A stretch of 64,000 bases of DNA from Neoarius graeffei (taxonomy: Eukaryota > Chordata > Actinopteri > Siluriformes > Ariidae): contig NC_083569.1 in the NCBI RefSeq assembly GCF_027579695.1, positions 75,064,649 to 75,128,648 on the forward strand, in the 5' to 3' direction. Numbering within the stretch: position 1 is the first letter of the stretch; every line of letters starts with the position of its first letter. Positions 18,002-57,574 of the stretch are shown here, one piece after another. Below the pieces are notes generated by a model. That model saw only the letters and a list, made by a program, of their open reading frames with translations, was not told the origin of the DNA and made no database searches. The position numbers and the translations under genes were made by a program.

Positions 18002-18676
18002 ACAGTATTTACAAACATGCACACCCTCCAGAATCCTCACAATTAACATTCTCTGGAAATAAAGGTGCAAACAAGGGACTCAAGGAGAGAAATAGGAGAA
18101 AATGAAATGCGGATGCTGGAAAACAAGTGTAACAGTGTAAAAGAAAATCCCAAGCCCTATTTCACAAGCTGAGAAATGGCTACATACGTGCATCACATGT
18201 GTAACAACTCCGTCTGACTATGATAGTTCACTCGTATTCCGAAGATAAAATACTGCCTCCTACAGTGGCCAAATCTCAAACAATAGCACCAATAATTATA
18301 TACTGATCTGAAAAAATATCAGAGTAACACCACGAATGGCCAAAAATACAGTGGTGTTGTACACAGGAGCAAAACAGGTAAGAAGGTGTTTGAGCTTTTC
18401 TATGAGATGTTAAGAAATTTGCTAAAACAGTGCTATCATGGCCAACATTGCACTTGTTGATAAACAATCAGGCTTTGCCACTGATTTATATATACACAAG
18501 AAGAAAGACACTTAATTTCACTGGTGAAAAAGGGGAACAAATAAGACAAGAGAGATGATAGAGAGTAAGCAGGCTGGCACTTGTAACTTTCTTTCCATTG
18601 CCAGATCAATGTTGTTATTTTCTCAGATGTATTTTTGTATCTTGTGGCAGGAGTACACTATAGTACTTGGCACTAC
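18002..18676. other. Non-coding flank upstream of ufsp1 copy A
   Basis: No gene seen. It is shared with 47160-49430 of copy B except that copy B carries a Tc1 insertion (empty site here at 'actgatttatatatacac', about 18481-18498). Confidence 0.7.
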
Positions 18677-18911
18677 AAGGTTTAAAAACCAACATTCATG
18701 ACACGGAACTATTAAACACAAGCTTTTGCGCAGAAGGGAAGGACTTTGTAGTCGGACCTCTCGATATTGCGAGATGCACAGAGAATTACAGAACACTTTA
18801 GATTTATTTATGTGTTAGTGAAAGAGGGTTTTTCTTTTCTTAAACAGTATTTCCAGAAATATAAATCTGTATAATAGTGGACATGGTGTGGCTGGTTTGT
18901 TGTTGTACTTC
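18677..18911 (+). promoter_or_regulatory. ufsp1 (copy A) promoter and leader
   Basis: This block is conserved in copy B and in the fragment at 17822. It contains 'gggaaggactttgtagtc', which resembles the ACTACAA-type motif bound by ZNF143 in many housekeeping promoters (read inverted), and a near-palindrome 'tctcgatattgcgaga'. No TATA box is evident. A pyrimidine run plus 'aaacag' (about 18831-18847) could be a 3' splice site, but no matching donor is obvious. The frame upstream of the first ATG is open and holds a CTG at 18867; I still choose the ATG. Confidence 0.45.
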
Positions 18912-19637
18912 ATGGAGCGGAAACAGGAAGAAGCTATAGACTGGGGAAAGCGGTTATCCGGAGAGGATCCGCACACAATTGTAAACAAAAGTGTCAAAGA
19001 CGTTTTAGTGAAGAATGCACATGACGGACTGGCTCTGCCATTGACAGAGTATGGGAGATGTTCAGTTATATCGGGACAGTGTGTGTATTATCATTATGGC
19101 TGTGATGGACAGGACGACAGAGGCTGGGGTTGTGGATACCGGACTGTTCAGACCATCGGCTCTTGGCTCAATAATGTCTCTCACGGTGCAAAATCCAGAC
19201 TTCCGCCAAGTCTCTCTGAAATCCAGCAAGCTCTAGTTACAGTAGGAGACAAGCCGGCCTCGTTTTTAGGCTCTAAAGAGTGGATAGGGACTTACGAGGC
19301 TGCTCTGGTCCTTGAGCAGCTCTATGATGTCCCCTGCCGGCTGGTGCATGCGCGCAGTGGGGGGACAGAGCTCGAGCAGGCGGCTCAGGACCTGCACCAA
19401 CATTTCCTCACCCGCGGATCACCAGTGATGATGGGTGGGGACAGGGACAACTCCTCCAAAGGCATTCTGGGTGTGTGCACTGGGAAAGAAGGAAGCTACC
19501 TGCTGGTAATGGATCCGCACTATTACGGTCCTGTCCCGGACAGGGAGTCGCTGCAGAGGAACGGCTGGGTGGCGTGGAGAAGAGTTCACTCTCTCGATCA
19601 CAGCTCCTTCTATAACCTTTGTTTGCCACAAACATAA
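18912..19637 (+). CDS. ufsp1: Ufm1-specific protease 1 (copy A), intact single exon
   Basis: Cysteine protease of the C78 family that matures the ubiquitin-like protein UFM1 and can remove it from substrates. The first ATG in frame is 18912 (context 'ttcatgg'), giving 241 residues. Active site: the DDRGWGCGYRT block with the catalytic Cys at residue 74, and the VMDPHYYG block with Asp201 and His203. The upstream Tyr-rich QCVYYHYG and the MMGGDRDNSSKGILG loop also fit the family. Length fits UFSP1 (around 217 residues in mouse). Human UFSP1 is known to start at a non-AUG codon. The gene is followed 20 bp later by a SINE. Its duplicate at 49663 differs by three residues. Confidence 0.95.
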   Translation: MERKQEEAIDWGKRLSGEDPHTIVNKSVKDVLVKNAHDGLALPLTEYGRCSVISGQCVYYHYGCDGQDDRGWGCGYRTVQTIGSWLNNVSHGAKSRLPPSLSEIQQALVTVGDKPASFLGSKEWIGTYEAALVLEQLYDVPCRLVHARSGGTELEQAAQDLHQHFLTRGSPVMMGGDRDNSSKGILGVCTGKEGSYLLVMDPHYYGPVPDRESLQRNGWVAWRRVHSLDHSSFYNLCLPQT

Positions 19638-19657
19638 CCATGATGTCCATTCCACTT

Positions 19658-19996
19658 GGCGGCACGGTGGTGTAGTGGTAAGCACGGTTGCCTCAAAGCA
19701 AGAAAGTTCCGGGTTCGAACCCAGCAGCCGGCGAGGGCCTTTCTGCGTGGAGTTTGCATGTTTTCTCCGTGTCTGCATGGGTTTCCTCCAGGTGCTCTGG
19801 TTTCCCCCACAGTCCAAACACATGCAGTTAGGTTGACGTGGGGCGGCCTTGGGCTGAGGTGCCCACCTGACCCCTGACTACTCCTTGGGTGCTCTGGTGT
19901 GGTGTGTGTTCACTGCTTCACATGGGTTAAATGCAGAGGATGAATTTCACTGTACTTGAAGTGTGCATGTGACAAATAAAGGTTTCTTCTTCTTCT
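19658..19996 (+). mobile_element. SINE (tRNA-derived) immediately 3' of ufsp1 copy A
   Basis: The head 'ggcggcacggtggtgtagtg' with box B 'gggttcgaaccc' is followed by a distinctive tail 'cttgggctgaggtgcccacc', 'actgcttcacatgggttaaa' and 'gacaaataaaggtttcttc'. It begins 20 bp after the stop codon, and its tail carries an AATAAA that could serve as the polyadenylation signal of ufsp1. The same insertion is present in copy B (50409-50747), so it predates the duplication. Confidence 0.85.
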
Positions 19997-20170
19997 ATGG
20001 CACAGTTTCCCAATCCTGGTCCAGGGACAATACTCAAATGGACAGGGGGTATTCCTAAAACAGGGTATGGAAAGTTTGTGCTCATGTTACCCAGCTGTTT
20101 GGGTTTCTAAATCGTTTGGCATAAATATTCATTCAGTTTCAATAAGCATGTCGTCCTGGTCAGGTGTCCT

Positions 20171-20543
20171 GGCAGCACAGTGGTGTAAGTGGTTAGCATG
20201 GTCGCCTCACAGCAAGAAGTTTCTGGGTTCGAGCCCAGTGGGGGTCTTTCTGTGTGAAGTCTGCATGTTCTCCCCGTGTCTGGGTGGGTTTCCCCCACAG
20301 TCCAAAGACACGCGGTTAGGTTAATATGAGACGGCCTTGGGCTGAGGTGCCCTTGAGCGAGGCACCTAACTCCCAACTGCTCCCCGGGTGCTGTTAGCAT
20401 GGCTGCCCACTGCTCTGGGTATGTGTGTGTGCTCCTTGTTCACGTGTGTGTGTTCACTGCTTCAGATGGGTTAAATTCAGAGAGGAATTTCACAAGTGTG
20501 TGATGAATAAAGTTGTGCTTTCTTTCTTTCTTTCTTTTCTTCT
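20171..20543 (+). mobile_element. SINE (tRNA-derived, (CTTT)n-tailed subtype)
   Basis: Starts 'ggcagcacagtggtgtaagtg' with box B 'gggttcgagccc' and runs through 'gacggccttgggctgaggtg' and 'gctgttagcatggctgccca', ending 'gatgaataaagttgtgcttt' and (CTTT)n. The orthologous duplicate is 50922-51321, where the (CTTT)n is longer. Confidence 0.85.
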
Positions 20544-20790
20544 TGTGGTGATCCTGGAGCGTGTCCCAGAAACACTGAGAGCAAGGTGGGAGAATTCACC
20601 CTGGATGGGATGCCAGTCCATTGTGTCACTCACTCACAACATATCCTGGACAATCTACTGAGCAGCATGGTTTCAGACAGTGGGAGGAAGCCAGAGAAAA
20701 CTCACAGGAACATTCGGTGCTTTGGATCGAACCAGGAATCCTTGAGCTGTGAGGCAGCAATGCTACACACTGTACCTACCATTAATATCA
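20544..20790 (-). mobile_element. Older SINE, minus orientation
   Basis: Reads 'caccctggatgggatgccag' through 'gtgggaggaagccagagaaa' to 'ggatcgaaccaggaatcctt' and 'gagctgtgaggcagcaatgc', which is the complement of a tRNA-derived SINE with its box B at the right. Its duplicate is at 51322-51570. Degenerate. Confidence 0.6.
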
Positions 20791-22676
20791 ATTCTAAAAG
20801 TTCTCTGATGGTCCTTTAAACCATGATCAGGATACTGAACATGCAGATTGTGAATTAGATGATGGATGATGAAAGGAATTCAGTTCACAATCATTTGTGC
20901 TACAGGTAAATGTTTTAACAAAATTGTGAGGTAATTACGGTGATGATAAATTCTTCTGATTATCACTGCTTTTTTTTAAGGACTTCGACCACATGTGTGA
21001 TGTTTGCTGGACTGCAAGAAGTATTTCTTTTTGGGATTTTAACAGAAACTCTCATGCCCTCTTGTGGGCAAAATAATACACAGTCCATCGTAATTTTAAC
21101 ACAATGGAACTGAAATATTTATACTTTTAGAAAGAAGAACAAAAAACAATCATGTTGTGAGCTTAAAACAGTGCTCTTGTAATAGGAGTATTTCTGTCAA
21201 TGAGATGACGACGGTAAAAAATAAAGGTGTTTCTGTAGCCTATTAATTTGTTTCCCGTTTATCCATGTGTATCAGTACAATTCAATAGATTGATGTTTTG
21301 TTTAGCACATGATTGCACCAGGAGGAGGGATTTAGGGACAAGCAGGAGATAGCGGGGCTGCTTTTCCTTCTTTGTTTGGGAACAGGAACCTGTGTGTGAG
21401 GTGGAGTGAGTTGCCAAATTTCACTGAGCAACTGAGATGAGATTGGTGTCGATAGTCAAACACGTGACTGAAATAGCCTCACATCCTTCTACACTCTCAA
21501 AAACCCTTCACGGTTCTTAAATCTTCCCCCTGGGGGACCCTACAACAATGTGTTTCATATAAAAAATAGTGTTCCTAATATATAATTTTATGATTAAGTG
21601 TGTGGAACAAATCCCAATTTATTGGTAATTATATTTCCTTCTTAATGTTGTTAATACCCAGAGTCCATCAGGCATGTATAACTGAGCTAAACTGTCTTGG
21701 TACTTGCTACCTTCGAAGAAAAATAATGATAATCGTAGGGTTCATGAGATACTTAAGGGTTCTGAACCTCTGAAACACTTTCTGATAAAAACATGCACTG
21801 TTGTAGGATCCTACATTTAAAGGCTCTATGTAGACACCCAAGTTGTCTCTGAGGGACAATCTGGAGGGCTCTAAACTTTGGAACAGCGCTGTAGCACCTC
21901 CCAGTAACCACAGAGCAAAGTCCATTAGTATTAAAAAGACAGCTAAGGTTTGAGCTCCATATGGAAAACCACTAGATATGACATCACTTCCTATTTGGCA
22001 GTTTTGTGCATGATGGACCATTGTACCTCACTCACTTTTACTAACCACTTTATCTTGGTCATACTCACGATGCTACACACTCACTCACTCACACCTTGGG
22101 GCAAGTGATCCGAGCCAATCCACCTCCACAGGGAGCACATGCCCTGAAAATTCACACAGACAGGAAGCTCAGGATCAAACTGGGGAAACTGCTGTGTCAC
22201 CTCACTTACAAATATCGAAAGTCCATTTGGTAACTCTCGTGGAGTGTAATCTTCTTTTTACAATGCTAATGATTTTAAATTATTTGTAGGAGGAATACTG
22301 CAAATCAATCCCTAAAATTCAGGACAGACACCTTCTTGTGTAGTGGACTTATAAATCTTAATGTTTGATGAATAAAATATGAGTTTATTTCCAGCTGTCT
22401 AACTGTTATGAATATTTAAATCATGTACGAGGGCTTGAGGGTGTGATCCTAAACCCACCTATTGGCAGCAGCACTATAGAGCATTCAGGGACGCATCTTA
22501 CTGAGAGGAGGGTGAAAGTGTGATTAATCTTTTGGCCTGTGATATTGCCAAAGTCTCAGAAAAATAAATCTGAAACCGAATAATGAGAAGAATAAAGGAA
22601 TAACACAGACATGTCACATCCCCAGTGTCCTCAGTGGCTGTGAGGAGGTATTTTATTATCAGTTTGGGTGTTGGTA
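20791..22676. other. Non-coding interior of copy A
   Basis: No gene recognised. A minus-oriented SINE remnant lies near 22060-22200 ('cactcactcacaccttggg' to 'ggatcaaactggggaaactg'). The rest is matched by 51571-53252 and 53659-53880 in copy B with small indels. Confidence 0.6.
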
Positions 22677-24556: not shown

Positions 24557-24940
24557 TTCACCTACTTGGTATTTTTTTTAAACCTATTGACACATGCTCT
24601 AATGCAAATGTGAATGAGAGAGTGATTGGGCATCAGGAGATTTCTGTTATTCTTATTGGTTTTAAGTTCTTCTAGATTTTTATCTTTCCAATGTCATCTT
24701 AAGGTCTAATGGTATTTATCGATTCATACAGAGAGATTTCAGAGTATTTAATAACTACTGAAGCAAATATATTTCATGATTATTTAGCTATTATTTAAAT
24801 TGCTGTTCATTATTAAATATTTGTAAATTTCTACCGATAAGCTGGTTTTGTTTTTTTTTTTTTGGGTAAGTGTCCTGTCCAGAGGGGAATCTCTTCATAG
24901 CACACACAGCCACATGAGCTACAGGATTAGTATTGCTATG

Positions 24941-24974
<34 letters not shown>

Positions 24975-25245
24975 CGGAGTTATGAGCCCACTACATTTAG
25001 GGGGAAAAAGATTATTAGTTTTATACAAATGGAACAGAAATAGTGGCTCGAATAAACGATACATTAACTGTGCGACGCTCCCGAGTATCATTTATTATTA
25101 TTATTATTATTATTACACCACTGAGCCTTGATATGCACAGATAATTTCCTCTGTTATTTAAAGCCGAACTGTTTGTATATTACAATTAAAAAAACCCCCC
25201 AAACCCGTAGGCCGACACGTGTATTCATTTCCTCAGAAATGAAAC
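24557..25245. other. Upstream flank of the GTPase promoter, with (CT)n and (TTA)n runs
   Basis: A (CT)n run occupies about 24941-24971 and a (TTA)n run about 25089-25114. No gene. Copy B differs mainly in the lengths of these runs. Confidence 0.7.
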
Positions 25246-25255
25246 TTTCGGTTTC
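25246..25255 (-). promoter_or_regulatory. Interferon-stimulated response element (ISRE), copy A
   Basis: The plus strand reads TTTCGGTTTC, an exact TTTCNNTTTC core; the minus strand reads GAAACCGAAA, the GAAANNGAAA site bound by IRF factors and ISGF3. It lies about 215 bp upstream of a TATA box and is retained unchanged in copy B (56925-56934). The position fits interferon control of the downstream GTPase gene. Confidence 0.7.
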
Positions 25256-25469
25256 TGTTCTGCTGGGACGAAACCATCACCAAGACCCACTTTATTTTAT
25301 TTCACGTTATTTTGGACAGGAAATCCTTCACACACAAAACAGGACACAGAATAATAAACCCCAAAGGATGTCAAGGAGGAACGAGCTGCACTTAATAATA
25401 CTGGATAGGGAAATCGATATGAATGAATAATAAACTAAATAAAATGGTTTAGTCCTTCTGGAACATCTT

Positions 25470-25550
25470 TATAAAGGGGAGTCCTGAAGGCAGGCGGTGA
25501 CTCTTTGAAGTGACTTCCAAAGGACCGAACAAAACTCCAGACGAGTAAGT
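25470..25550 (+). promoter_or_regulatory. TATA box and non-coding first exon with splice donor of the GTPase gene
   Basis: TATAAA at 25470-25475 is followed about 30 bp later by the expected start site. A consensus 5' splice site GTAAGT at 25545-25550 ends a short leader exon (about 25500-25544) with no ATG. The coding exon begins after the acceptor at 26176, so the first intron is about 630 bp. The same arrangement is repeated at 57151-57244. Confidence 0.65.
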
Positions 25551-25589
25551 AGAGCCTCGCGCTTAAATATATGGTTTATTATCAAATAA

Positions 25590-25653: not shown

Positions 25654-26176
25654 GGTTATGGTTTCATGAGGAAAACAGAGTTTTTAAATTGACGTACTTT
25701 CCCCAGACTTGAGCACAAATACTCAAAAGCCTGTTAAAAAAGACGAGAAATTGCTTCAATGTACAACTGATGTGCTTAATTTTTGCTGGCTAGTATGTTT
25801 ACTTTGTATTGTGTTAATGTTTTTTTGCAGTTCAAAAAGTGACAATATTAAATCTATAATCCACCATTTGCCAATACTAGTATCTTGCTTTGATACAAGC
25901 CCAAGATGCCTTTAAACCCAGATCATGTTGATTTTCACTACAAGAGGAGTTTGTAGATTAAGATATGTCATAGTGTAATGTGAAAGCTAATCTTCTGGAT
26001 ACATAATCAACACAGAACACTTTCTGCATGCTAGTTAATATTGCAAAGGCGAGAAAGTCCAAAACTTACATCTCGGGCAATTCCGTGTTCATATTCTTCT
26101 CCCATACTGAATGTTTAGGGGAAGTGACTGGATGTACTGTATAACTCAAACTGAAGCAGTGTGGTTTCTCTTACAG
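25551..26176 (+). other. Intron 1 of the GTPase gene
   Basis: Runs from the GTAAGT donor to 'ttctcttacag'. It contains the (TA)n run and otherwise nothing recognisable. Confidence 0.6.
25583..25650. repeat. (TA)n microsatellite in GTPase intron 1
   Basis: About 34 TA units. It marks the right edge of the similarity between segmental copies A and B: the duplicates are alike up to 'tatcaaataagga' and then part. Confidence 0.95.
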
Positions 26177-29100
26177 ATGCTTCAAATGTCTCATCAGGCC
26201 AAACTTCGGATCATTCTTCAGGACCATGACATTCGCAAACTGGACTTACCTCATGGAATCCCTGGGACTGTGGGTGAACTTCAGTCTATTGTGAGAGAGA
26301 CATTTGGGCTTGATGGAAGCTTTACTTTGCATTATAAAGATGCTGATTTTGGAGAGGAATATTTTTCTCTTACCTCAACAAGTGACATCAAGGACAAGGA
26401 CACAATTAAGGTGATTCACATTGTTGAACCTCCCTCAATTACTCTGAACTTAACTGATCTGGATAGTTCCAATGAAAGTACATCAGAGACCTCCATCCAT
26501 AGCTCATCAGCCTTGGCCCATACTTCAGTGACCTCCATCCATCCTTCCATCAGCAGTTGTTCCTCTGGATCACAGGACACACTGATTCTTTCGTCACCCG
26601 AACATGTTACCCAGCGTTCACAGTGTTGGCCTACTGAATTTCCAGTACCTCGCTTTGCTTATGACACAGAGCTTGTGCTTGCCTCAGGAGATGAAGATTT
26701 CAAGAAGGATGGAATTCAACTCAACTTTACCACAATCCTTCCTGACATCCTTGAGAAACTGGCTGAAAGCATCCTTCAATACGTTGCCTACCCAACTGGT
26801 GCAGAGTTGTCCGATGTTGCTAAGGCACTGATTCAGAAGCATCCTTGCCTTAAAGAACCTGGATCATATAATGGATGCTGTGGATGGCAACAAAGACTAA
26901 AATATAAAATGGGGAACTATAGATCTAAATTGAGAGGGCTTGGATGCCCTGAGCTTGATGTGAACTCTCTCAAAAAGAATCAAGCACATGAGAAAGCGCC
27001 GGCAAAGAATATTAAAAAGCCAAGAAAGGCAGAAGTGAACTCTTTACCCCCTCACCCACAAGGAATAACAGAAGGAACATTGGAACAAGAAAGAGTGGAG
27101 CTCCTTAATGAAGTTAAGAAGAGGAACAACTGTCAGATTATCAATGATAAAATGGCAAAGACATTCTCCCTTCGCGGAAAGGAAGTTGTCAGTCAAGCAT
27201 CACCAGTCAGTGACCTAAAAGACAGATGGCATGCTCTTTTTAATGCAGCTCAGGTAAATATTTTTTTCATAAAGTGGTTCACAGTATGTGCTATGTTGGT
27301 TGTTTCAGTTGTTTACAGTCAGTTGTTAACCCTAACAAATAAATCATATCGGCATGAATGTTACACTGGTCACTCTTCTTAAGACAGTTTTACAGGTTTG
27401 TTATTTTAACTTAATGGTCATCTGTAATTTGACGTTGAACTGACGTGTCTGCTCTCACTGAGATACATGTAAATGGGGTGGACTAAACAAGCAGATCAGT
27501 ATAATAATTTTTTTCTCCACCGCCAGCAACACTATGTTTTACTTTTCACATGGTGGGCTTTTTTTATTTTTTAAAAATTCTTTAACATGCATACAGAGTG
27601 CAGTGTTTTCATTCAGTTATTTAATTAATTTGATCATTCTGATTTTTTTATTTTAATTTTTTTAAATAATTCAGTTTTTTTGTCCAAGTATTTTTGAAAG
27701 TTTGCAGGTTTATTTTGTGTATGGCTGGTGGTATAAAATTATCTGCAGTTAAAAATCATTTGGACAAAAGTTGGCATTGGTTTTATAATAAACCGTTTAT
27801 GATAAAATTGGAATTGCATGTAATTTATCCTGACTGAAGAGCAATAAGTTACACTCACTTAACAAACAAACAAACAAACAAACAAACAAACAAACAAAAC
27901 ACTGGCTTAAGTTAAAAAATAATAATAACTCAATAAAGTTGGAATTACTTAAAAAGATCCATGCAAATTGTTACCTTAATTTTTTTAAGTTGAGCCAGAG
28001 GTAAGCATTGAGCAGAGCATTTTATTGATTTGATTTTATGATTTACACACCAGACTGTTATCCTTATTCATATCCTTGTTCAAATATTCCCAACTCAAGC
28101 AAGTTGAAGATCCCAGAGATTTCTTTGACAAAGAGCTACAACAAGATCTTTCTGAAAAACAGTCTGCAGAACCAGATGTAGAAGAGGAGACAGACACTTC
28201 AGAAGGTACTGTGATCAAATTTTCGGCAGATCGATTTCCTACACAAACATGGTGTTTGATCACATTTGCTGAGTTGAATTATTCTTGTTCTACACAGATG
28301 TTCCTGCACCATATGACATTTCAGTGCAGTCCATTGGGACTGATTTTGCTAGACTTGGGTGGAAATGCCGAGAGAACACATCAACATTTGAGCTGAGGTG
28401 CACCAGCAGCACATCTTCAAGCATCCAGACCCTTTCACAGAATTACGCTGAAGTGTTGGGCCTGTGCCCAGGCACCGAGTACACTTTTACACTGGTTGCA
28501 GTTTCAGAAAATGGAATCCAGAGTTCAAGAGCCGAAGTATCTGCATACACAAGTAATAATCAGTCTAATGTTTTGGACTGACATATGCTGAATAATATCT
28601 CAATGTAACTTACCATGTCATTACTCCATCTTTCTTTTCATTACAGTTCCAAACCCACCTGAAAGCATCGAGGTTAAGAATATTGGTAGCACATCAGTTA
28701 CTCTAACCTGGCAGCCACCTGCTTCCTTAGAGAAGAAGTACCATGTGGTGTGTTCCCACAATGGTATAACTGTTCATGAAGAAGAAACAGAAATTAACAC
28801 AATTGTTTTCAGTAATCTGACTCCAGGAAAAAATTATTCCTTCCACATTGCAACAGTACTTAAAAATGGCAGCACAAGCAAGACGGCCGAGTTATTTGCC
28901 AGCACTAGTAAGTATTTATCTACATTTTGTAAGTCTTTAAACCTCATGACAACTGGTTTTATTTCAAACCTTTGATTGGGATGTGCATTTTTTTTTAATT
29001 TAAATTAATAGAAACCAATCTCAAGAGCTTTCTTCAGGATGTGGGGCTGAATCAACACCTCACTAAACTCTCACTGAGTGCTGTACTACAGATTGATAAG

Positions 29101-32100
29101 AGCACAGTGACAGATGATCCAGCATGTTCTCAATCAGATTTACCATGGCTTTTCCTCAAGAAAATTATGATGGTGAATGTGACTGCAAGAAGTGTCAAAT
29201 GTGCTCCATCAGCTGATGAGGATGAAGATATGAGTTTAGATCTGTGTAGTGATCTGGAACGTCTTGTCCTCAACGAAGACTCTGATGTGAAAGTAAATCC
29301 TTTAGACATCATAACTGCACTCTTCCTTTGCTCAGACAGTTTTCTTCAACAAGAGATTGCTTTGAAAATGTCTATGTGCCAGTTCTCTGTGCCTTTACTG
29401 CTTCCTAATTGTGACACACAGCAGAGCACGCTCATGCTTTGGGCCTTAAGAGATATTGTGAAGAAGTTTAGACCACACTCCTTGTCTGATCCAAGAGGGT
29501 TTGTGGAAGAAAGGATTGTTCTAGCAGACTTACCCTTAGTGTCCTTTGTAAGACTTGGAGACTGCAGCATTTCTAAATCTCAAATCTTGAACAAGCTGCT
29601 CAGTAATCCACAGCAATATCATGATACATTTGTGCACCGTGACATGGACTGTGGAGACATCCCAAGAAAAATATCAAATGGTTTGGTGGAGATCAGCTGG
29701 TACCTACCTTGTGGAAGTAAAAACATAGACATCTTCCCCGAACCTGTGGCTATTGCAAACTTGAGAGGGGACATAAGTACATTTGTTACTCAGTACTCAT
29801 TCCTTTGTCAGATTTCTACAGCAGTTTTTGTATTCTTTGACAATTTTGAATCAAACTATCAACTACTCACCAATACACATGTAAAAGCACAATTGTTTTT
29901 GGTGGGTAATGCAGACACCAAAGCCTACAAATTGGATTTGCTGAAAAGAACAGCTGCTGCACTGAAATTGAACAAAAGAAGGATCATTCTGAAGACCAAA
30001 CAAAATGATGCAGATTTTGTCAAAAATCTGTGTTCTGCAGTGAGAGATGTTGTGAAAAACAGGCCTATGACTGTACAACTTGAGAAGATGACCACAGTTG
30101 CACATGAATTTGGAATTTGGATTGATGAAGACTGTAAGGAGTGCCAAAATGCAAAAGAAAATGCAGAGGCAATCACGAGTAAAATACAGGACACACTAAA
30201 GTTTAAGAAAGAACAGCTCCCTTTGCAGGGTGAGATCTGGAAGAAATTAGGCAAATTAGAGAAAGAGGAGTGTAGGCTTCGTAAAGCTGGGGACAAGAAC
30301 ATTGAGATGTATAAAAGTGAACTGAAACAACAGAAGATGGAACTCAGGAAGCAGCAAAGGAGCTATGAAATGTCAGAAGCCATGACATGCTTCATAACTG
30401 CACTGTCAAGTTCACCTCTTGAGAGATCGTACTTCCTGAAATGGATGCGAATGAATCTGGACAACCTTTCCCGCAAAAAACTAACATGTCTTAGAGAATT
30501 GTACAAGGAGAAATGTCAAGAATCATCTGAGAAGAAGGAGGAGATTGCATTACTTGACAGACAGATCTCAAACAGTGCTTTGGGAACTGAACACTTTCTG
30601 AGGGAAATGGGTCAGCTGTATGAAGCTGCTGTCATCCTTCCAGAAAATATACAAGCAAGACAACAAATGCTACACTTACCCAGTCTGTGTGCGAGGCTCC
30701 TTTTAGATGGATTTCCTCTTGAACTTGTTGATGGAGATGCTTCAAATATACCTTTAAGATGGATTAGTGATGTACTGACAGAGCTGAATAATTTAGCGCA
30801 ACCCAAGAATAAGATCATGGTAGTCACAGTATTAGGAGTCCAGAGCACAGGAAAGTCTACCCTCCTAAACACCATGTTTGGGGTTCAGTTTGCAGTCAGC
30901 AGTGGAAGATGCACACGAGGAGCTTTCATGTTGCTGATCAAAATCACAGATAGCTTCAGAGAAATACTTAACTGTGATCATTTAGTGATCATTGACACCG
31001 AGGGACTGAAGTCGCCTGAACTGGCACAGCTCGATGACAGCTATGAACATGACAATGAACTGGCCACACTTGTTGTTGGACTGAGTGACATTACCATCAT
31101 CAACATAGCCATGGAGAACTCCACAGAAATGAAGGACATTCTGCAGATTGTGGTGCATGCATTCCTCAGGATGAAGGAAGTGGGCAAAAAACCCATGTGT
31201 GCATTCGTGCATCAGAATGTAGCTGACGTCTCAGCACATGACAAAAACATGAGAGACCGGAAGCTTCTTTTAAAGCAGCTGAATGAGATGACTGAAGCAG
31301 CAGCCAAGATGGAAAATAAGGAAGACTACAAGAAGTTTACTGATGTAATGGAGTATGATCCAGAGACAGGTAACTGGTATATACCTGGGCTGTGGCACGG
31401 TAACCCACCAATGGCACCAGTGAATGCTGGCTACTCCGAGGCTGTCTATGACTTCAAAAAGAACATGATGGACATTCTTGTAAAAAAGAAGATATCTACC
31501 AACAACATTACAGAATTTCTGGAGTGGACAAAAAGCTTATGGAATGCAGTAAAATATGAAAATTTCATATTCAGCTTTAGGAACAGCTTGGTCGCTAATG
31601 CATACATGAAGCTTTGTGCTGAATTCCATAAATGGGAATGGTCTTTCAAAAAGCACATGTACAAGTGGTTAATGTCTGCTGAAACCAGAGTGTCCAATTT
31701 TGAGATGATGAAATCAAAATCTGACAAAACAAACCTGCAAGATTTCCTGAGGACCCTGAAACATGAGGCCTCCTCAGAGCTTGATAACTGGGAAAAGACT
31801 CTTTTGGAAAACATCATCAAATACTTTGAACAAACAGAGGGTCATGTCTATCTCGTAGAAAGGTACAAAGAAGACTTTGTAAACAGTGCAAAATCTCTCA
31901 GGAAGGAAACAGAAAACTCAGTGATGAGTAACCTAGAGGCAGTTATTGAGATTAGGGCAGGAAAGAATAATTTGGACCACATCAAGAAAACAAATACTGA
32001 CAAAATGGAAAAGAAAGTGTTAAACCTTCTGGAGGAGCTCCGGAAAAACAGAAGTTTAGAGGGCATGTCTGAAGAGGAGCTTGACAACCATTTTGAACAC

Positions 32101-33684
32101 ATGTGGAAGGAAACACTTGAAGAGTTGTCATTTAAAGGCTTGCAGAAGCAAACAATATCTGACAGTGTTTTTCGACAATTACGAGAAAACATGAGACAAA
32201 AGGGAAGTTCAGTCTCTAAAGAGCTGAGTAATGTGAATCTGCATGAATATGGCAACGACAAATTCATTGTTCATTCTGAGAGTTTTCTAAAAAAACTTTT
32301 TTTCATGGACAATTCTAACAATCTTCAAAAGTTGGCAGACAGTGTCATTGATGCATGTAAGCAGTCAGTTAGTGACAAAAAAGAGAAAAAATCAGATTAT
32401 CATGACACTTACATTCAGGAGATCCTACACAGAATTGATGATAACTTGACTTTGGGCAAGGAATTGAAATTTTCTGACAAATTTGAACTTTCTCTTAAGC
32501 TACACATTTGTGCTATTTCTGCAAGAGAATTTCAGGCCATGCATGACTGTTTTATTGCAGAGAACGACCCACGCCGATGCCTTGAGCAATTCAAAGAGAA
32601 ATACCGAGCTGATTTTAAAGATCTGTTCAGTAATCGTGATCAGTGCCAGAGGAAGGCTGAAGAATTCACAAAACTCTGCCTGAGTCCTGCAGTTGAGACG
32701 TTCATCTGTAACTCACTGGGACCAGACATTATTGACACAATGCTGCAAGGGGAAAATGCATTTCAGTTCAGCACACGTGCCTTTTTCCAGTACACACTTT
32801 TAGGACAACTTCTGACCGAGAGTGATTTTCAGAAGTATTTGGACTACATACGTTCATATGAACGCTTTGTTAAAGACTGGATATTAAAACAAATTACAGA
32901 CAGATTTTCCAGAGGAAACAAACTTTTTAAGCTGGAAGAGCAGCATCTCAAAGGAGCTATTATGGAGATAAAAGAAGCCATCAAAAAAGCACAACACAAG
33001 ACAGATAAAAATAAACGCATAAAGATATTCGTTCAGAACATTTGCAGAGAGCTTGGAAAAAAGCTTGTCATTTCAAACGATGCCTTGGAAGCAGTTATGG
33101 CTTTGAGCAATGCCAAACAGGAGCAATTTGCCCACTGGCTCATGCAGTCTGTGGAGGAAATGGAAGCATTGCTGAAGACTAAGTTGCAGAACAAAAATAT
33201 TCAGAGCAAACTGAGAACACTCAAAATCAAACCACAGGATGAGCTGTTCAAGCGTGTGTTTGGCTGTGGAAAACTGTGTCCATTCTGCAAAGCACCATGT
33301 GAGGCAGGAGGAGAGGCTCATACACACCACTCTGCTTCTGTACACAGACCTCAAGGACTTGGTCAATACAGATATGAGCAATCAGAGACATTAGTCACTA
33401 ACATTTGTTCTACTGATGTGAACAGTGATACAAGTTTCAGATGCCTAGAGACCAAACATGAATGGCATCCTTATAAGAAATACAGGGAGATCTTTCCGGA
33501 CTGGCACATCCCTGCAGACCCCAGCATAGAGGCCTCAGACTACTGGAAATATGTGATGGCAAAGTTTAATAATCAGTTTGCAGAAGCGTACAATGCCAAG
33601 CCTGCAGCTATTCCCCTAGTGTGGAAAAAAATCACAAAGCAACAAGCAGAAAATAGTTTGAAGGAGTGTTTTAGTATCAAGTAA
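26177..33684 (+). CDS. gvin1: Very large interferon-inducible GTPase (GVIN/VLIG family) with PB1-like and FN3 N-terminus
   Basis: Coding exons 26177-27253, 28100-28205, 28298-28552, 28647-28907 and 29012-33684 keep frame throughout (6372 bases, 2123 residues). The ATG follows directly after the acceptor 'tctcttacag'. Residues 1-90 resemble a PB1-type fold (LRIILQDHDIRKLDLPHG, KDKDTIKVIHI); 190-300 have the YPTGAELSDVAKALI and CCGWQQRLKYKMGNYRSKLR blocks known from fish SAMD3-like proteins. Residues 395-566 are two fibronectin-III domains (one exon each). The last exon carries the VLIG G domain: P-loop GVQSTGKST at 1175-1183, DTEG at 1228-1231 and the FVHQNV motif. Before it is a coiled-coil-rich stretch (about 930-1110), and near the C-terminus a CGKLCPFCKAPC Cys/His cluster. 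Family members are cytosolic, interferon-induced and poorly understood biochemically. The joining of the first exon to the rest is inferred from splice signals and phase, not from a transcript. An ISRE lies upstream. Confidence 0.88.
27254..28099 (+). other. Intron 2 of the GTPase gene
   Basis: Donor GTAAAT at 27254; acceptor 'actcaag' at 28099. It holds an (AAAC)n microsatellite at about 27861-27899. No exon or transposon recognised inside. The acceptor is weak by eye, but it is the one that keeps the frame open. Confidence 0.6.
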
Positions 33685-46547: not shown

Positions 46548-47171
46548 ATTCTGTGTGTGTGTGAGGCCTATCTTCTCTGATGGACACATGTATAACTCAT
46601 CTCATGAGAACATCGATATCAGGCTATACCGTACATTGAAATACTAAAGAGAAAAAAAAAGCAAGCTTCAACCTGACCGATGTATCCTCGTTTCTATGCC
46701 TTTTTTGTCTGCCTTGATTGCACGGTCATCTTGGATGGTCCACCTGCTCTTATCCAATTAATATTCAATGCCATGCCCTTTCTTCTCTGTGCTTATTGTA
46801 ACCATACTGAAGGAGTGTACAGCACTACATCACACAGTTATGAATTAGATGTTTAGGGATCTGCTCCACTGAAAATCGCCCACAAATAAAAAGATTTACT
46901 ACTTACTCAGCAGCAGCTTGTGTAACAGTGTACCTGAATGCTGACAAAAAGCTAACAAGGGAGTAATTTCAAAAGATAAATGCAAATGCCATGTGGTGAA
47001 ATTTACTCTGGAGGTCTGCAACTTGTCTCGCTGTCTTTTTAGTGCTCCTTCTCGTTTTCCTGCTTTCTTAAACTTCTCTGCAGTTCGAAGTTTTCTTGTA
47101 AGGTGCTGCTAACATGCATCTCACAGCTCATACACACAGTTCTGCACATGCTCACATGCTCATGCACACAA
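46548..47171. other. Intergenic, up to the start of segmental copy B
   Basis: Nothing recognised. This is the sequence joined to the left border of copy B and it does not resemble the sequence left of copy A (17360-18015). Confidence 0.55.
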
Positions 47172-47645
47172 ATGTGCACACCCTCCAGAATCCTCACAAT
47201 TAGCATTCTCTGGAAATAAAGGTGTAAACAAGGGACTCAAGGAGAGAAATAGGAGAAAATGAAATGCGGATGCTGGAAAACAAGTGTAACAGTGTAAAAG
47301 AAAATCCCAAGCCCTATTTCACAAGCTGAGAAATGGCTACATACGTGCATCACATGTGTAACAACTCCATCTGACTATGATAGTTCACTCGTATTCCGAA
47401 GATAAAATACTGCCTCCTACAGTGGCCAAATCTCAAACAATAGCACCAATAATTATATATTGATCTGAAAAAATATCAGCGCAACACCACAAATGGCCAA
47501 AAATACAGTGTTGTTTTACACAGGAGCAAAACAGGTAAGAAGGTGTTTGAGCTTTTCTATGAGATGTTAAGAAATTTGCTAAAACAGTGCTATCATGGCC
47601 AACATTGCACTTGTTGATAAACAATCAGGCTTTGCCACTGATTTA

Positions 47646-49255
47646 CAGTGGTGCTTGAAAGTTTGTGAACCCTTTGGAATTTTCTATATTTCTGCATAAA
47701 TGTGACCTAAAACATCATCAGATTTTCACATAAGTCCTAAAAGTAGATAAAGAGAACCCAGTTAAACAAATGAGACAAAAATATTATACCTGGTCATTTA
47801 TTGATTGAGGAAAATGATCCAATATTACATATCTATGAGTGGCAAAAGTATGTGAACCTTTGCTTTGAGCATCTGGTGTGACCCCCTTGTGCAGCAATAA
47901 CTGCAACTAAATGTTTCCAGTAACTGTTGATCAGTCCTGCACACTGGCTTGGAGGAATTTTAGCCCATTCTTCCATACAGAACAGCTTCAACTCTGGGAT
48001 GTTGGTGGGTTTCCTTACATGAACTGCTCGCTTCAGGTCCTTCCACAACATTTCCATTAGATTAAGGTCAGGACTTTGACTTGGCCATTCCAAAACATTA
48101 ACTTTATTCTTCTTTAACCATTCTTTGGTAGAACGACTTGTGTGCTTAGGGTCGTTGTCTTGCTGCTTGACCCACCTTTTCTTGAGATTCAGTTCATGGA
48201 CAGATGTCCTGACATTTTCCTTTAGAATTCGCTGGTATAATTCAGAATTCATTGTTCCATCAATGATGGCAAGCCGTCCTGGCCCAGATGTAGCAAATCA
48301 GGCCCAAACCATGATACTACCACCGCCATGTTGCACAGATGGGATAAGGTTCTTATGCTGAAATGCAGTGTTTTCCTTTCTCCAAACATAACGCTTCTCA
48401 TTTAAACCAAAAAGTTCTATTTTGGTCCCATCTGTCCACAAAACATTTTTCCAATAGCCTTCTGGCTTGTCCACGTGATCTTTAGCAAACTGCATACGAG
48501 CAGCAATGTTCTTTTTGGAGAGCAGTGGCTTTCTCCTTGCAACCCTGCCATGCACACCATTGTTGTTCAGTGTTCTCCTGATGATGGACTCATGAACATT
48601 AACATTAGCCAATGTGAGAGAGACCTTCAGTTGCTTAGAAGTTACCCTGGGATCCTTTGTGACCTCGCCAACTATTACACGCCTTGCTCTTGGAGTGATC
48701 TTTGTTGGTCGACCACTCCTGGAGAGGGTAACAATGGTCTTGAATTTCCTCCATTTGTACACAATCTGTCTGACTGTGAATTGGTGGAGTCCAAACTCTT
48801 TAGAGATGGTTTTGTAACCTTTTCCAGCCTGATAAGCATCAACAACACCTTTTCTGAGGTCCTCAGAAATCTCCTTTGTTCGTGCCATGATACACTTCCA
48901 CAAACATGTGTTGTGAAGGTCAGACTTTGATAGATCCCTGTTCTTGAAATAAAACAGGGTGCCCACTCACACCTGATTGTCATCCCATTGACTGAAAACA
49001 CCTGACTCTAATTTCACCTTCAAATTAACTGCTAATCCTAGAGGTTCACATACTTTTGCCACTCATAGATAAGTAATATTGGATCATTTTCCTCAATAAA
49101 TAAATGACCAAGTATAATATTTTTGTCTCATTTGTTTAACTGGGTTCTCTTTATCTACTTTTAGGACTTGGGTGAAAATCTGATTATGTTTTAGGTCATA
49201 TTTATGCAGAAATATAGAAAATTCTAAAGGGTTCACAAACTTTCAAGCACCACTG
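47646..49255 (-). mobile_element. Tc1/mariner element, family 2, full length, one stop
   Basis: Ends 'cagtggtgcttgaaagtttg' on both strands with TA at 47644-47645 and 49256-49257; the empty site is in copy A. The transposase on the minus strand reads 48966-48298 (MARTKEISEDLRKGVVDAYQ, RTLNNNGVHGRVARR, VLWTDGTKIELFG) and, after one stop (TGA where the sister copy has TGT), 48282-47833 (QQDNDPKHTSRS, LNLMEMLWKDL). All three acidic catalytic positions are still present, though their surroundings (DGT, LME) differ slightly from the usual DET and PIE. Confidence 0.93.
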
Positions 49256-49436
49256 TATATACACACACAAGTAGAAAGACACTGATGAAAAAGGGGAACA
49301 AATAAGACGAGAGATGATAGAAAGTAAGCAGGCTGGCACTTGTAACTTTCTTTCCATTGCCGGATCAATGTTGTTATTTTCTCAGATGTATTTTTGTATC
49401 TTGTGGCAGGAGTACACTATAGTACTTGGCACTACG

Positions 49437-49662
49437 AGGTTTAAAAACCAACATTCACGACACGGAACTGTTAAACACAAGCTTTTGCGCAGAAGGGAAG
49501 GACTTTGTAGTCGGACCTCGCGATATGCACAGAGAATTACAGAACACTTTAGATTTATTTATGTGTTAGTGAAAGAGGGTTTTTCTTTTCTTAAACAGTA
49601 TTTCCAGAAATATAAATCTGTATAATAGTGGACATGGTGTGGCTGGTTTGTTGTTGTACTTC
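49437..49662 (+). promoter_or_regulatory. ufsp1 (copy B) promoter and leader
   Basis: Same blocks as at 18677-18911. It differs by a small deletion that removes half of the near-palindrome ('acctcgcgatatgcac' instead of 'acctctcgatattgcgag'). The 'gactttgtagtc' motif is kept. Confidence 0.45.
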
Positions 49663-50388
49663 ATGGAGCGCAAACAGGAAGAAGATATAGACTGGGGAAA
49701 GCGGTTATCCGGAGAGGATCCGCACACAATTGTAAACAAAAGTGTCAAAGACGTTTTAGTGAAGAATGCACATGACGGACTGGCTCTGCCATTGACAGAG
49801 TATGGGAGATGTTCAGTTATATCGGGACAGTGTGTGTATTATCATTATGGCTGTGATGGACAGGACGACAGAGGCTGGGGTTGTGGATACCGGACTGTTC
49901 AGACCATCGGCTCTTGGCTCAATAATGTCTCTCACGGTGCAAAATCCAGACTTCCGCCAAGTCTCTCTGAAATCCAGCAAGCTCTAGTTACAGTAAGAGA
50001 CAAGCCGGCCTCGTTTTTAGGCTCTAAAGAGTGGATAGGGACTTACGAGGCTGCTCTGGTCCTTGAGCAGCTCTATGATGTCCCCTGCCGGCTGGTGCAC
50101 GCGCGCAGTGGGGGACCAGAGCTCGAGCAGGCGGCTCAGGACCTGCACCAACATTTCCTCACCCGCGGATCGCCAGTGATGATGGGTGGGGACAGGGACA
50201 ACTCCTCCAAAGGCATTCTGGGTGTGTGCACTGGGAAAGAAGGAAGCTACCTGCTGGTAATGGATCCGCACTATTACGGTCCTGTCCCGGACAGGGAGTC
50301 GCTGCAGAGGAACGGCTGGGTGGCGTGGAGAAGAGTTCACTCTCTCGATCACAGCTCCTTCTATAACCTTTGTTTGCCACAAACATAA
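49663..50388 (+). CDS. ufsp1: Ufm1-specific protease 1 (copy B), intact single exon
   Basis: A 241-residue protease with the same active-site blocks as copy A (DDRGWGCGYRT with Cys74, VMDPHYYG with Asp201 and His203). Over the whole protein it differs from copy A at three places: Asp for Ala before IDWG, Arg for Gly in VTVRDKP, and Pro for Thr in SGGPELEQ. None touches the catalytic residues. The open frame and retained promoter suggest a young duplicate that can still be expressed. It is followed by the same SINE as copy A. Confidence 0.94.
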   Translation: MERKQEEDIDWGKRLSGEDPHTIVNKSVKDVLVKNAHDGLALPLTEYGRCSVISGQCVYYHYGCDGQDDRGWGCGYRTVQTIGSWLNNVSHGAKSRLPPSLSEIQQALVTVRDKPASFLGSKEWIGTYEAALVLEQLYDVPCRLVHARSGGPELEQAAQDLHQHFLTRGSPVMMGGDRDNSSKGILGVCTGKEGSYLLVMDPHYYGPVPDRESLQRNGWVAWRRVHSLDHSSFYNLCLPQT

Positions 50389-50408
50389 CCATGATGTCCA
50401 TTCCACTT

Positions 50409-50747
50409 GGCGGCACAGTGGTGTAATGGTAAGCACGGTTGCCTCAAAGCAAGAAAGTTCCAGGTTCGAACCCAGCGGCCGGCGAGGGCCTTTCTGCGTG
50501 GAGTTTGCATGTTCTCTCCGTGTCTGCATGGGTTTCCTCCAGGTGCTCCGGTTTCCCCCACAGTCCAAAGACATGCAGTTAGGTTGATGTGGGGCGGCCT
50601 TGGGCTGAGGTGCCCACCTGACCCCTGACTACTCCTTGGGTGCTCTGGTGTGGTGTGTGTTCACTGCTTCACATGGGTTAAATGCAGAGGATGAATTTCA
50701 CTGTACTTGAAGTGTGCATGTGACAAATAAAGGTTTCTTCTTCTTCT
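50409..50747 (+). mobile_element. SINE 3' of ufsp1 copy B
   Basis: Orthologous to 19658-19996 (same insertion point 20 bp after the stop codon). Its tail again gives an AATAAA usable by the gene. Confidence 0.85.
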
Positions 50748-50921
50748 ATGGCACAGTTTCCCAACCCTGGTCCAGGGACAATACTCAAATGGACAGGGGG
50801 TATTCCTAAACCAGGGTATGGAAAGTTTGTGCTCATGTTACCCAGCTTTTTGGGTTTCTAAATCGTTTGGCATAAATATTCATTCAGTTTCAATAAGCAC
50901 GTCGTCCTGGTCAGGTGTCCT

Positions 50922-51273
50922 GGCAGCACAATGGTATAAGTGGTTAGCACGGTCGCCTCACAGCAAGAAGTTTCTGGGTTCGAGCCCAGTGGGGGCCTTT
51001 CTGTGTGAAGTCTGCATGTTCTCCCCGTGTCTGCGTGGGTTTCCTCCGGGGGCTCTGGTTTCCCCCACAGTCCAAAGACACGCGGTTAGGTTAATATGAG
51101 ACGGCCTTGGGCTGAGGTGCCCTTGAGCGAGGCACCTAACTCCCAACTGCTCCCCGGGTGCTGTTAGCATGGCTGCCCACTGCTCTGGGTATGTGTGTGT
51201 GCTCCTTGTTCACTGCTTCAGATGGGTTAAATTCAGAGAGGAATTTCACAAGTGTGTGATGAATAAAGTTGTG

Positions 51274-51316
<43 letters not shown>

Positions 51317-51321
51317 TTCTT
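50922..51321 (+). mobile_element. SINE ((CTTT)n-tailed subtype), copy B
   Basis: Counterpart of 20171-20543. The tail microsatellite is expanded to about ten CTTT units (51277-51317). Confidence 0.85.
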
Positions 51322-51570
51322 CTTGTGGTGATCCTGGAGCCTGTCCCGGAAACACTGAGAGCAAGGTGGGAGAATTCACCCTGGATGGGATGCCAGTCCA
51401 TTGTGTCACTCACTCACAACATATCCTGGACAATCTACTGAGCAGCACGGTTTCAGACAGTGGGAGGAAGCCAGAGAAAACTCACAGGAACATTCGGTGC
51501 TTTGGATCGAACCAGGAACCCTTGAGCTGTGAGGCAGCAATGCTACACACTGTACCTACCATTAATATCA
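51322..51570 (-). mobile_element. Older SINE, minus orientation, copy B
   Basis: Counterpart of 20544-20790, with the same degenerate box B near 'ggatcgaaccaggaaccctt'. Confidence 0.6.
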
Positions 51571-53252
51571 ATTCTAAAAGTTCTCTGATGGTCCTTTAAA
51601 CCATGATCAGGATACTGAACATGCAGATTGTGAATTAGATCATGGATGATGAAAGGAATTCAGTTCACAATCATTTGTGTTGTAAAATGGTGCACAAAAG
51701 CTACAGGTAAATGTTTTAACAAAATTGTGAAGTAATTATGGTGATATAACAGAAATTCTTCTGATCTTCACTGCTTTTTTCAGGACTTCAATCACGTGTG
51801 ATGTTTGCTGGACTGCAAGAAGAATTTCTTGTTGCGATTTTAACAGAAACTCTCATGCCCTCTTGTGGGCAGAATAATACACAGTCCATCGTAATTTTAA
51901 CTCTATGGAAATGAAATATTTATACTTTTATTAAGAAGAACAAAAAACAATCATGTGAGCAGTAACCCCTAAAACATGATTCTTGACAAAATTTATCGGG
52001 ATCTGCACTCAGATGACACTTTGAGCACAGCACATGCACACAATATACTGTTTTAAACAGAGTGCTTAAAACAGTGCTCTTGTAATAGGAGTAATTCTGT
52101 CAATGAGATGACTACAGGGTAAAAAATAAAGGTGTTTCTGTAGCCTATTAATTTTTTTTCCTGTTTATCCATGTGTATCAGTACAATTCAACAGATTGAT
52201 GTTTTGTTCAGCACATGATTGCACCAAGAGGAGGGATTTTGGGACAAGCAGGAGATAGCGGGGCTTTTCCTTCTCTGTTTTGGTGCAGCAAACAGGAACA
52301 TATGTGTGAGGTGGTGTGAGTTGGTAAATTTCACTGAGCAACTGAGATGAGATTGGTGTCGATACTCAAACGCGCTGCTGAAATGGCCTCACATCCTTCT
52401 ACACTCTCAAAAACCCTTCAGGGTTCTTAAATCTTCCCCCTGGGGGACCCTACAACAATGTGTTTCATAGAAGAAAAGTGTTCCTAATATATAATTTTAT
52501 GATTGTGTGGAACAAATCCCAAATTATTGGTAATTATATTTCCTTCTGAATGTTCTTAATACCCAGAATCTGTCAGGCATGTATAATTGACCTAAACTGT
52601 CTTGATACTTGCTACCTTCTAAGAAAAATAATGGTTCTCGTGGGGTTCATGAGATACTTAAGGGTTCTGAGCCTCTGAAACACTTTCTGATAAAAACATG
52701 CACTGTTGTAGGATCCTATATTTAAAGGCTCGATGTAGACACCCAAGTGATTTGGAAGGCTCTAAACTTTGGAACAGCGCTGTAGCACCTCCCAGTGACC
52801 ACAGAGCAAAGTCCATTCGTGTGAAAAAGACAGCTAAGGTTTGAGCTCCATATGGAAAACCATTAGATATGACATCACTTCCTATTTGGCAGTTTTGTGC
52901 ATGATGGACTATTGTACCTCACTCACTCACTCACTCACTCACTCACACCTTGGGGCAAGTGATCCGAGCCAATCCACCTCCACAGGGAGCACATGCCCTG
53001 AAAATTCACACAGACAGGAAGCTCAGGATCAAACTGGGGAAACTGCTGTGTCACCTCACAAATATCAAAAGTCCATTTGTTAACTCTTGTGGAGTGTAAT
53101 CTGAATATCTTCTTTTTACAGTGCTAATGATTTGAAATTATGTGTAGGAGGAATATTATAAATCAATCCCTAAAATTCAGGACAGACACCTTCTTGTGTA
53201 GTGGACTTACAAATCATAATGTTTGATGAATAAAATATCATGAGTTTATTTC
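51571..53252. other. Non-coding interior of copy B
   Basis: Aligns with 20791-22400. It includes a roughly 90-bp stretch missing from copy A near 51960-52060 and an (ACTC)n run at about 52919-52947 that sits in an old minus-oriented SINE remnant (to about 53055). No gene. Confidence 0.6.
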
Positions 53253-55703: not shown

Positions 55704-56420
55704 TATTCCTACTTGGTATTTTTTTTAAACCTATTGACACATGCTCTAATGCAAATGTGAATGAGAGAGTGATTGGGCATCAGGAGATTTCTGTTATTCT
55801 TATTGATTTTAAGTTCTTCTAGATTTTTATCTTTCCAATGTCATCTTAATGTCTAGGATAAGTGGTTATGGATAATGGATGGATGACATACCTACTTGGG
55901 CAGTACGGTGGTGTAGTGGTTAGCACGGTCGCCTCACAGCAAGAAGGCTGTGGGTTCGAACCCAGTGGCCGGCGAGGGCCTTTCTGTGTGGAGTTTGCAT
56001 GTTCTCCCCATGTCTGCGTGGGTTTCCTCCGGGTGCTCCGGTTTCCCCCACAGTTCAAAGACATGCGGTTAGGTTAATATGGGACGACCTTGGGCTGAGG
56101 TGCCCTTGAGTGAGGCAACTAACCCCCAACTGCTCCCTGGGCGCTGTTAGCATGGCTGCCCACTGCTCTGGGTATGTGTGTGTGCTCATTGCTCACGTGC
56201 GTGTGTGTTTACTGCTTCAGATGGGTTAAATGCAGAGAGGAAATTTCACAAGTGTGTGATGAATAAAGTTGTGCTTTCTTTTTCTTTCTTTATTTTTTTA
56301 AACCTATTGACACATGCTCTAATGCAAATGTGAATGAGAGTGTGATTGGGCATCAGGAGATTTCTGTTATTCTTACTGATTTTAAGTTCTTCTAGATTTT
56401 TATCTTTTAATGTCATCGTA
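55675..56420. repeat. Local tandem duplication in copy B, second unit carrying a SINE
   Basis: The stretch 'aggataagtggttatggata' through 'cctacttgg' and on to 'ttctagatttttatctttc' occurs twice (about 55671-55852 and 55856-56413); copy A has it once (24530-24690). Within the second unit a (CTTT)n-tailed SINE sits at 55898-56292. Confidence 0.8.
55898..56292 (+). mobile_element. SINE ((CTTT)n-tailed subtype), copy B only
   Basis: Starts 'ggcagtacggtggtgtagtg', box B 'gggttcgaaccc', tail 'gatgaataaagttgtgcttt' plus a short (CTTT)n. Confidence 0.87.
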
Positions 56421-56772
56421 AGGTCTAATGGTATTTACTGATTCATACAGAGATTTCAGAGTATTTAATAACGACTGAAGCAAATATATTTCATGATTAT
56501 TTAGCTGTTAAATTGCTGTTCATTATTAAATATTTGTAAATTTCTACCGATAAGCTGCTTTTTTTTTCGGGGAGGGGTCCTGTCCAGAGGGGAATCTCTT
56601 CATAGCCACATGAGCTACAGGATTAGTATTGCGATTATCTATTCTCTCTCTGAGCGGAGTTATGAGCCCACTACATTTAGGGGGAAAAAAAAGATGATCA
56701 GTTTTATACAAATAGAACAGAAATGGTGGCTCGAATAGACGATACATTAACTGTGCGACACTCCCGAGTATC

Positions 56773-56824
<52 letters not shown>

Positions 56825-56924
56825 TTTACTCCACCATTTAAAGCAGAACTGTTTGTATATTACAATCAATCAATAAAAACAAACAAACAAAACCCGTCGG
56901 TTTTCATTTCCTCAGAAACGAAAC

Positions 56925-57244
56925 TTTCGGTTTCTATTCTGTTGGGACGAAACCATCACCAAGACCCACTTTATTTTATTTCACATGTTATATTGGACAG
57001 GAAATCCTTCACACACAAAACAGGACACAGACTAATAAACCCCAAAGGATGTCAAGGAGGAACGAGCTGCACTTAATAATACTGGATAGGGAAATCGATA
57101 TGAATGAATAATAAACTAAATAAAATGGTTTAGTCCTTCTGGAACATCTTTATAAAGGGGAGCCCTGAAGGCAGGCGGTGACTCTTTGAAATGACTTCCA
57201 AAGGACCGAACAAAACTCCACCCACTTTCTCCAGACGAGTAAGT
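56925..57244 (+). promoter_or_regulatory. Second copy of the GTPase promoter: ISRE, TATA box, exon 1 donor
   Basis: TTTCGGTTTC (ISRE core) at 56925-56934, TATAAA at 57151-57156 and the GTAAGT donor at 57239-57244, in the same order and spacing as copy A apart from an 11-bp insert in the leader exon. No GTPase coding exon follows inside the window; a LINE on the opposite strand begins about 330 bp downstream. A long (TTA)n run sits at 56768-56826, upstream of the ISRE. Confidence 0.6.
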
Positions 57245-57574
57245 AGAGCCTCACGCTTAAATATATGGTTTATTATCAAATAAGGAGAATACAATTTTAC
57301 ATGTATATCTAAAAAGGCTGATTGCTTAAATACCTTTTAGAGAAGATATAATAAACTTTGAAAGAACATTTTAAGATTCACACCGAAGCCTGAAAGACAT
57401 TCAGAGATATTGCAACATCAGGTGAATTGGAACAGCAGAAGTAAACAGCATTTATTTTCTGTCCTGATAAATTTAAATTACTGAGCCCTTCCAGTAGAAC
57501 TGAACTAATGCTGCCACTTGTGTATTTGATAATGTTAGAAATCTCGACGAATATTTGACCCATTTATGATACTC
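57245..57574. other. Sequence between promoter copy B and the LINE
   Basis: It follows intron 1 of copy A for about 40 bp and then is unique. It may be GTPase intron sequence lost from copy A, or the 3' tail of the adjoining LINE. No exon recognised. Confidence 0.45.

Follow-up and report, generated by a model that had tools for sequence, protein, structure and literature searches.

The window analysed here is a 64,000-nucleotide stretch of contig C1 (NC_083569.1) of the catfish Neoarius graeffei, C1:75064649-75128648. It most probably lies within a local array of tandem segmental duplications of GVIN/URGCP-type giant GTPase genes with an interferon-type promoter, in which ufsp1, encoding a predicted Ufm1-specific protease, would have been copied as a passenger; from the sequence comparisons below we put this reading at a probability of about 0.85. 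It is carried by the alignment of two collinear units, A and B, in both of which an open ufsp1 precedes an open GVIN gene, and by the passage of the unit end (X) into the unit start just upstream of ufsp1 (Y) before both of them. Self-alignment was extended through the adjoining stretch up to C1:75328600, and the resulting 264-kb region was numbered as the window, such that coordinates above 64000 belong to the extended region. Genome-wide searches covered 2.34 Gb in 38 contigs. Copy numbers of GVIN and ufsp1 are lower bounds owing to a stretch of N inside the added region, whose open frames were read up to about 112 kb and again from about 221 kb onwards. The splice sites and acceptor of the GVIN gene of unit A, as well as the name "Tc1-like" used below, were assigned by eye.

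An earlier note on this DNA had described the same block, comprising ufsp1, shared short interspersed elements (SINEs), an interferon-stimulated response element (ISRE), a TATA box and a leader exon, at two places about 29 kb apart, and the block itself was borne out by self-alignment. Positions 18011-18488 matched 47168-47645 (97.7% identical) and 18519-21155 matched 49280-51956 (94.5%), followed by further collinear pieces up to 24573-25592, which matched 56293-57286; similarity between A and B ranged from 87 to 98% by piece. The spacing of about 29 kb holds from X to X (18011/47168; 29,157 bp), whereas the two ufsp1 genes are 30,751 bp apart. Block B differs from A by a Tc1-like insertion in X and several indels, and the unit that follows A, unit B, is 47,920 bp long. 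Each unit is laid out as ufsp1, ISRE promoter, FN3-FN3-GVIN and X. A SINE-like repeat (19648..19864, forward strand) was found directly past the ufsp1 stop codon, at the same site in B, by both self-alignment and inspection of the sequence. The right part of unit A (46632..47159, forward strand) is collinear with the ends of other units, with 95.8% identity to 94548-95074 of the region, and alignment of 46537-47154 with 214938-215546 gave 92.7%.

The joints between units were then compared. The X block at 18010..18673 (forward strand), the right end of the repeat unit, is set head-to-tail onto Y of unit A and is 97.3% identical to 95088-95750 and 95.5% identical to 215567-216230; at 95088 and 215567, X continues into one common right flank with identical joint sequence. 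Before unit B, the X block (47168..49432, forward strand) is split by the Tc1-like insertion at about 47645-49257. The breakpoint, with TTGGCAC on the X side and TAC[A/G]AGGTTTAA on the Y side, is the same before A and B save for one A/G difference, so that the units stand head-to-tail with a common breakpoint, which we took as the mark of a tandem array. Left of the array, a remnant of Y (Y'; 17822..18002, forward strand), 97.2% identical to 18677-18857 just upstream of ufsp1, runs directly into X, with the 8-base direct repeat CAGTATTT at the fusion; it may be what remains of a collapsed unit. Since two X-Y joints share their breakpoint and Y' is fused to X, the array probably once comprised three units or more. 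The passage from X into the right flank would represent the original order, and that from X into Y the duplication joint. X was also considered as a mobile element, which was rejected, as its matches, at least four among the best 40 of 6022 candidates for a 2-kb query that contained it, all lay in the cluster.

Non-coding divergence between A and B was uneven, amounting to 2.5% (58/2337) at the end that holds X and ufsp1 compared with 5.3% (403/7631) elsewhere (Fisher P 2.6e-9), the latter set consisting of the other aligned pieces minus the GVIN piece, although some 100 bases from the end of the GVIN coding sequence are included. Parts of the units may thus have been exchanged, or converted, at a later time.

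Both ufsp1 copies are open frames of 249 codons on the forward strand, A at 18888..19637 and B at 49639..50388, which likely start at the ATG at 18915, giving 240 aa, and at that at 49666, respectively. They match the Pfam family Peptidase_C78 (PF07910; E 2.3e-55 for A and 5.1e-55 for B), and their best match among solved structures is 2z84, Ufm1-specific protease 1 (E 8.3e-58 and 1.5e-56). UFSP1 is closer than UFSP2 (2z84, E 8e-58, versus 3oqc, E 3e-43), and the motifs DDRGWGCGYR and DPHYYG are aligned in both copies, which thus keep the Cys and Asp-Pro-His motifs that we take to hold the catalytic residues. By sequence, both copies are members of peptidase family C78, of the UFSP1 type, and predicted proteases. 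They differ at seven of 750 bases, with four changes silent and three replacing (A16D, G120R and T160P), and are less diverged than the nearby non-coding DNA of A and B (7/750 versus 58/2337; P 0.008). This would agree with purifying selection on one or both copies, which does not require an immune role. Genome-wide, two ufsp1 loci were found, with all 12 candidates scored, again a lower bound given the N stretch. The other C78 matches, with all nine candidates scored, were partial and located on C3 and C24, where they may correspond to ufsp2 and zup1. A neighbourhood of the human type was rejected, as the ARS2 (srrt) domain was found on C29 (the match on C15 was weaker and broken) and the AChE-tetramer domain at C1:60.49 Mb, 14.6 Mb away.

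Downstream of ufsp1, the promoter and leader of GVIN A span 25244..25544 on the forward strand, with the ISRE at 25244, TATA at 25470 and the leader end at 25544, followed by a GTAAGT donor. Those of GVIN B span 56923..57238 on the same strand, with the ISRE at 56923, TATA at 57151 and the leader end at 57238. The ISRE-like sequence is ACTTTCGGTTTC in both, and the TATA box reads TATAAA. ISRE, TATA and leader with the GTAAGT donor recur in a forward copy at about 173.6 kb and in an inverted copy at about 139 kb, and a further copy at about 176 kb has TATA and leader without the ISRE, which is therefore retained in four of the five aligned promoter copies. The 20-mer GAAACTTTCGGTTTCTGTTC, derived from block A, had four matches with up to one mismatch across the 2.34 Gb, all four inside this cluster. 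These matches indicate that the promoters share descent; because the 20-mer came from block A, they speak for descent only and imply no function. With up to two mismatches there were eight matches, fewer than the 12 of a reversed control pattern, so that only close matches are informative. Judging from these promoters, we expect interferon to induce the GVIN copies of the cluster.

GVIN A, in turn, has two FN3 exons (28298-28552 and 28647-28907, forward strand; Pfam fn3 E 8.8e-8 and 6.2e-14) and an open main exon of the URGCP/GVIN-type giant GTPase at 29012..33684 on the same strand (PF25683 E 1.1e-201; PF25496 E 6.5e-121; no stops). PF25496 and PF25683, the URGCP-like N-terminal and GTPase domains, cover residues 85-799 of the 1547 aa of this giant exon. 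The main exon of GVIN B (C1:75143530-75148167) is located beyond the window, likewise has no stops and is 92% identical to GVIN A in amino acids. The co-amplification of ufsp1 with an antiviral-type GTPase put forward in the earlier note is supported by two units, and the outcome that would have refuted it, with no further units and no GVIN after B, did not occur, as an open GVIN stands after B and more lie beyond. The distance from leader to main-exon frame is 21.6 kb in B compared with 3.5 kb in A, and most open frames within this interval of B, read by eye, look like transposons. Block A had been described as leading straight into GVIN; an open GVIN does follow, with a dispersed open reading frame (ORF) of 423 aa (26111..27382, forward strand) between promoter and gene. 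With 99 of 963 candidates scored, this ORF has at least 109 matches, spread over numerous contigs; several of them are open and, self excepted, they are 35-91% identical. No Pfam family was found for it at E 0.001. It is a candidate multicopy element or domesticated family. Given its dispersal over many contigs and the lack of a B counterpart in the A-B alignment, it was rejected as part of the unit.

For three GVIN pairs, Ka/Ks was 0.46-0.60, with bootstrap ranges within 0.35-0.81 and Ks uneven along the gene. In the alignment of GVIN A with B, codons 901-1200 showed Ks of 0.14-0.19 and Ka of 0.06-0.13 beside near-identical stretches. This raised divergence suggests mosaic evolution through gene conversion.

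To the right of GVIN B, one inverted, broken GVIN copy and one forward copy with a premature stop (codon 588) were identified, and the GVIN copies found beyond B are without ufsp1. Further GVIN clusters are present on C11, C14 and C23, and no C78 match was found on these three contigs in the genome-wide C78 search described above. A broken-up inverted duplication relates about 128-140 kb to 172-187 kb, with pieces about 92-98% identical, and contains a promoter of the GVIN type as well as sequence that matches exons preceding a GVIN main exon; it is a candidate second mode of growth besides the head-to-tail one. A 988-bp direct repeat (157147-158134 and 164374-165361; 99.9% identical, 7.2 kb apart) may represent the termini of an element that is very recent. 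At about 223-237 kb, right of the array, neuroligin-2/3-like exons lie on the minus strand with transposon-like frames between them; this is the nearest recognised gene to the right of the cluster among the frames listed, none of which come from about 112-221 kb.

A history consistent with these arrangements would start from the order left flank, Y, ufsp1, promoter, GVIN, X and right flank. As the repeat unit happens to start just upstream of ufsp1, the latter would have been duplicated along with GVIN, with the X-Y joint formed by the duplication. At least three units would have been present at one time, of which one collapsed left of A, and exchange or gene conversion between units would have continued afterwards. 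Several points weigh against this account. The units bearing ufsp1 now number only two, and the right part of the cluster contains copies in inverted orientation as well as promoters to which no gene obviously belongs, so that exchange was not head-to-tail alone. Moreover, another order of duplications might also explain why A and B are less diverged around ufsp1. The array of ufsp1-GVIN units growing by unequal exchange, as first proposed, is thus upheld as regards the shared X-Y breakpoint and the collapsed unit left of A, but only two units keep ufsp1, and the other GVIN copies, some of them inverted, lack it. The same applies to the suggested unit count by self-alignment, which yielded two ufsp1-bearing units and additional GVIN copies beyond them that do not carry the gene.

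The passenger reading is compatible with a proposal that we regard as rather unlikely, namely that ufsp1 B is a decaying duplicate. B carries G120R, where the solved structures of UFSP1 (2z84) and UFSP2 (3oqc) both have G, and T160P is also found in B. Position 120 was nonetheless rejected as invariant, since it is Q in the solved UFM1 proteases 5ejj and 5xda, and copy B retains the catalytic motifs and has no stop.

We consider it improbable that the co-amplification is functional, with selection favouring extra ufsp1 dosage, or control of the gene by interferon in the cluster, on account of a role for deUFMylation in defence against viruses. Such selection would agree with both copies having remained open and with the conservation of their coding sequence relative to nearby non-coding DNA, but a bystander gene would undergo purifying selection too, and four synonymous plus three non-synonymous changes are not enough to demonstrate that both copies are under selection. 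Regarding interferon control, each copy is preceded by relaxed matches of the interferon regulatory factor (IRF) type. One, GAAAATGAAA, lies at 18098, about 0.8 kb ahead of ufsp1 A; its counterpart in B, at 47255, is separated from ufsp1 by the Tc1-like insertion. The other, TTTCTTTTC, precedes each frame by 57 bases (18831 and 49582). The 264-kb region, however, contains the relaxed core GAAANNGAAA 42 times, and single relaxed matches near ufsp1 therefore mean little. No ISRE of the cluster type was found near ufsp1; that of the GVIN leader stands 5.6-6.5 kb downstream of it, and ufsp1 is expected to be driven by its own proximal promoter. The remaining GVIN copies of the cluster, furthermore, are without ufsp1. 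More doubtful still is the wider proposal that ufsp1 is a dosage-variable immune gene, amplified with interferon-driven GTPases since deUFMylation or UFM1 maturation would serve the antiviral response, by analogy with USP18, which serves ISG15. UFMylation components are tied to antiviral signalling or infection in the portions consulted of two papers (PMC9883236, PMC12282175), in the first of which, within that portion, the UFL1 effect is independent of UFMylation. The link between UFMylation and the interferon response, which the earlier note had raised as a possibility, finds no support here beyond neighbourhood.

It is very improbable that the assembly placed the two haplotypes of a single locus in tandem as A and B: the units are long and 87-98% similar by piece, with only seven base differences between the ufsp1 copies, but this artefact would have to accommodate a non-coding divergence of 5.3%, private insertions (the Tc1-like one in X of B and the 26111 ORF in A), a promoter-GVIN distance about 18 kb greater in B, the common joint before A and B plus the collapsed remnant, and more GVIN copies on the same 131-Mb contig.

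Under the passenger reading, a conserved enzyme gene may become copy-number variable by forming part of the unit repeated in a rapidly changing immune array. The ufsp1 pair would provide a natural dosage experiment for UFSP1, and the X-Y joint sequence a marker typable in populations; were the link functional, UFMylation would be connected with the interferon response of fishes. The literature search returned no paper joining ufsp1 with GVIN1 and none treating ufsp1 together with gene duplication and copy number, and the arrangement was not found among the papers returned on ufsp1 in teleosts or in relation to interferon in fish, as judged from titles and the beginnings of abstracts.

UFSP1 is, to our knowledge, single-copy in mammals, and here two copies are found in tandem units. 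The human gene adjoins ACHE and SRRT, whereas ufsp1 is here away from the ache and srrt domains that were found. Like known UFSP1, both copies have the full catalytic domain with its Cys and Asp-Pro-His motifs. The array resembles the GVIN/VLIG clusters of fishes in being multicopy and clustered and in its giant main exon, URGCP/GVIN GTPase domain and interferon-type promoter. In stickleback, GVIN1 genes appear in a table of copy-number-variable genes (PMC4256280, in the part consulted), and in salmon cells a VLIG is reportedly expressed in response to type I interferon (PMC4337061, likewise in part). Unlike the GVIN clusters on C11, C14 and C23 of the same genome, the repeat unit described here includes ufsp1. 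In bystander amplification, a gene within a duplicated segment is copied along with its neighbour, and from this process, as it operates in tandem segmental duplications, the array would not differ in mechanism.

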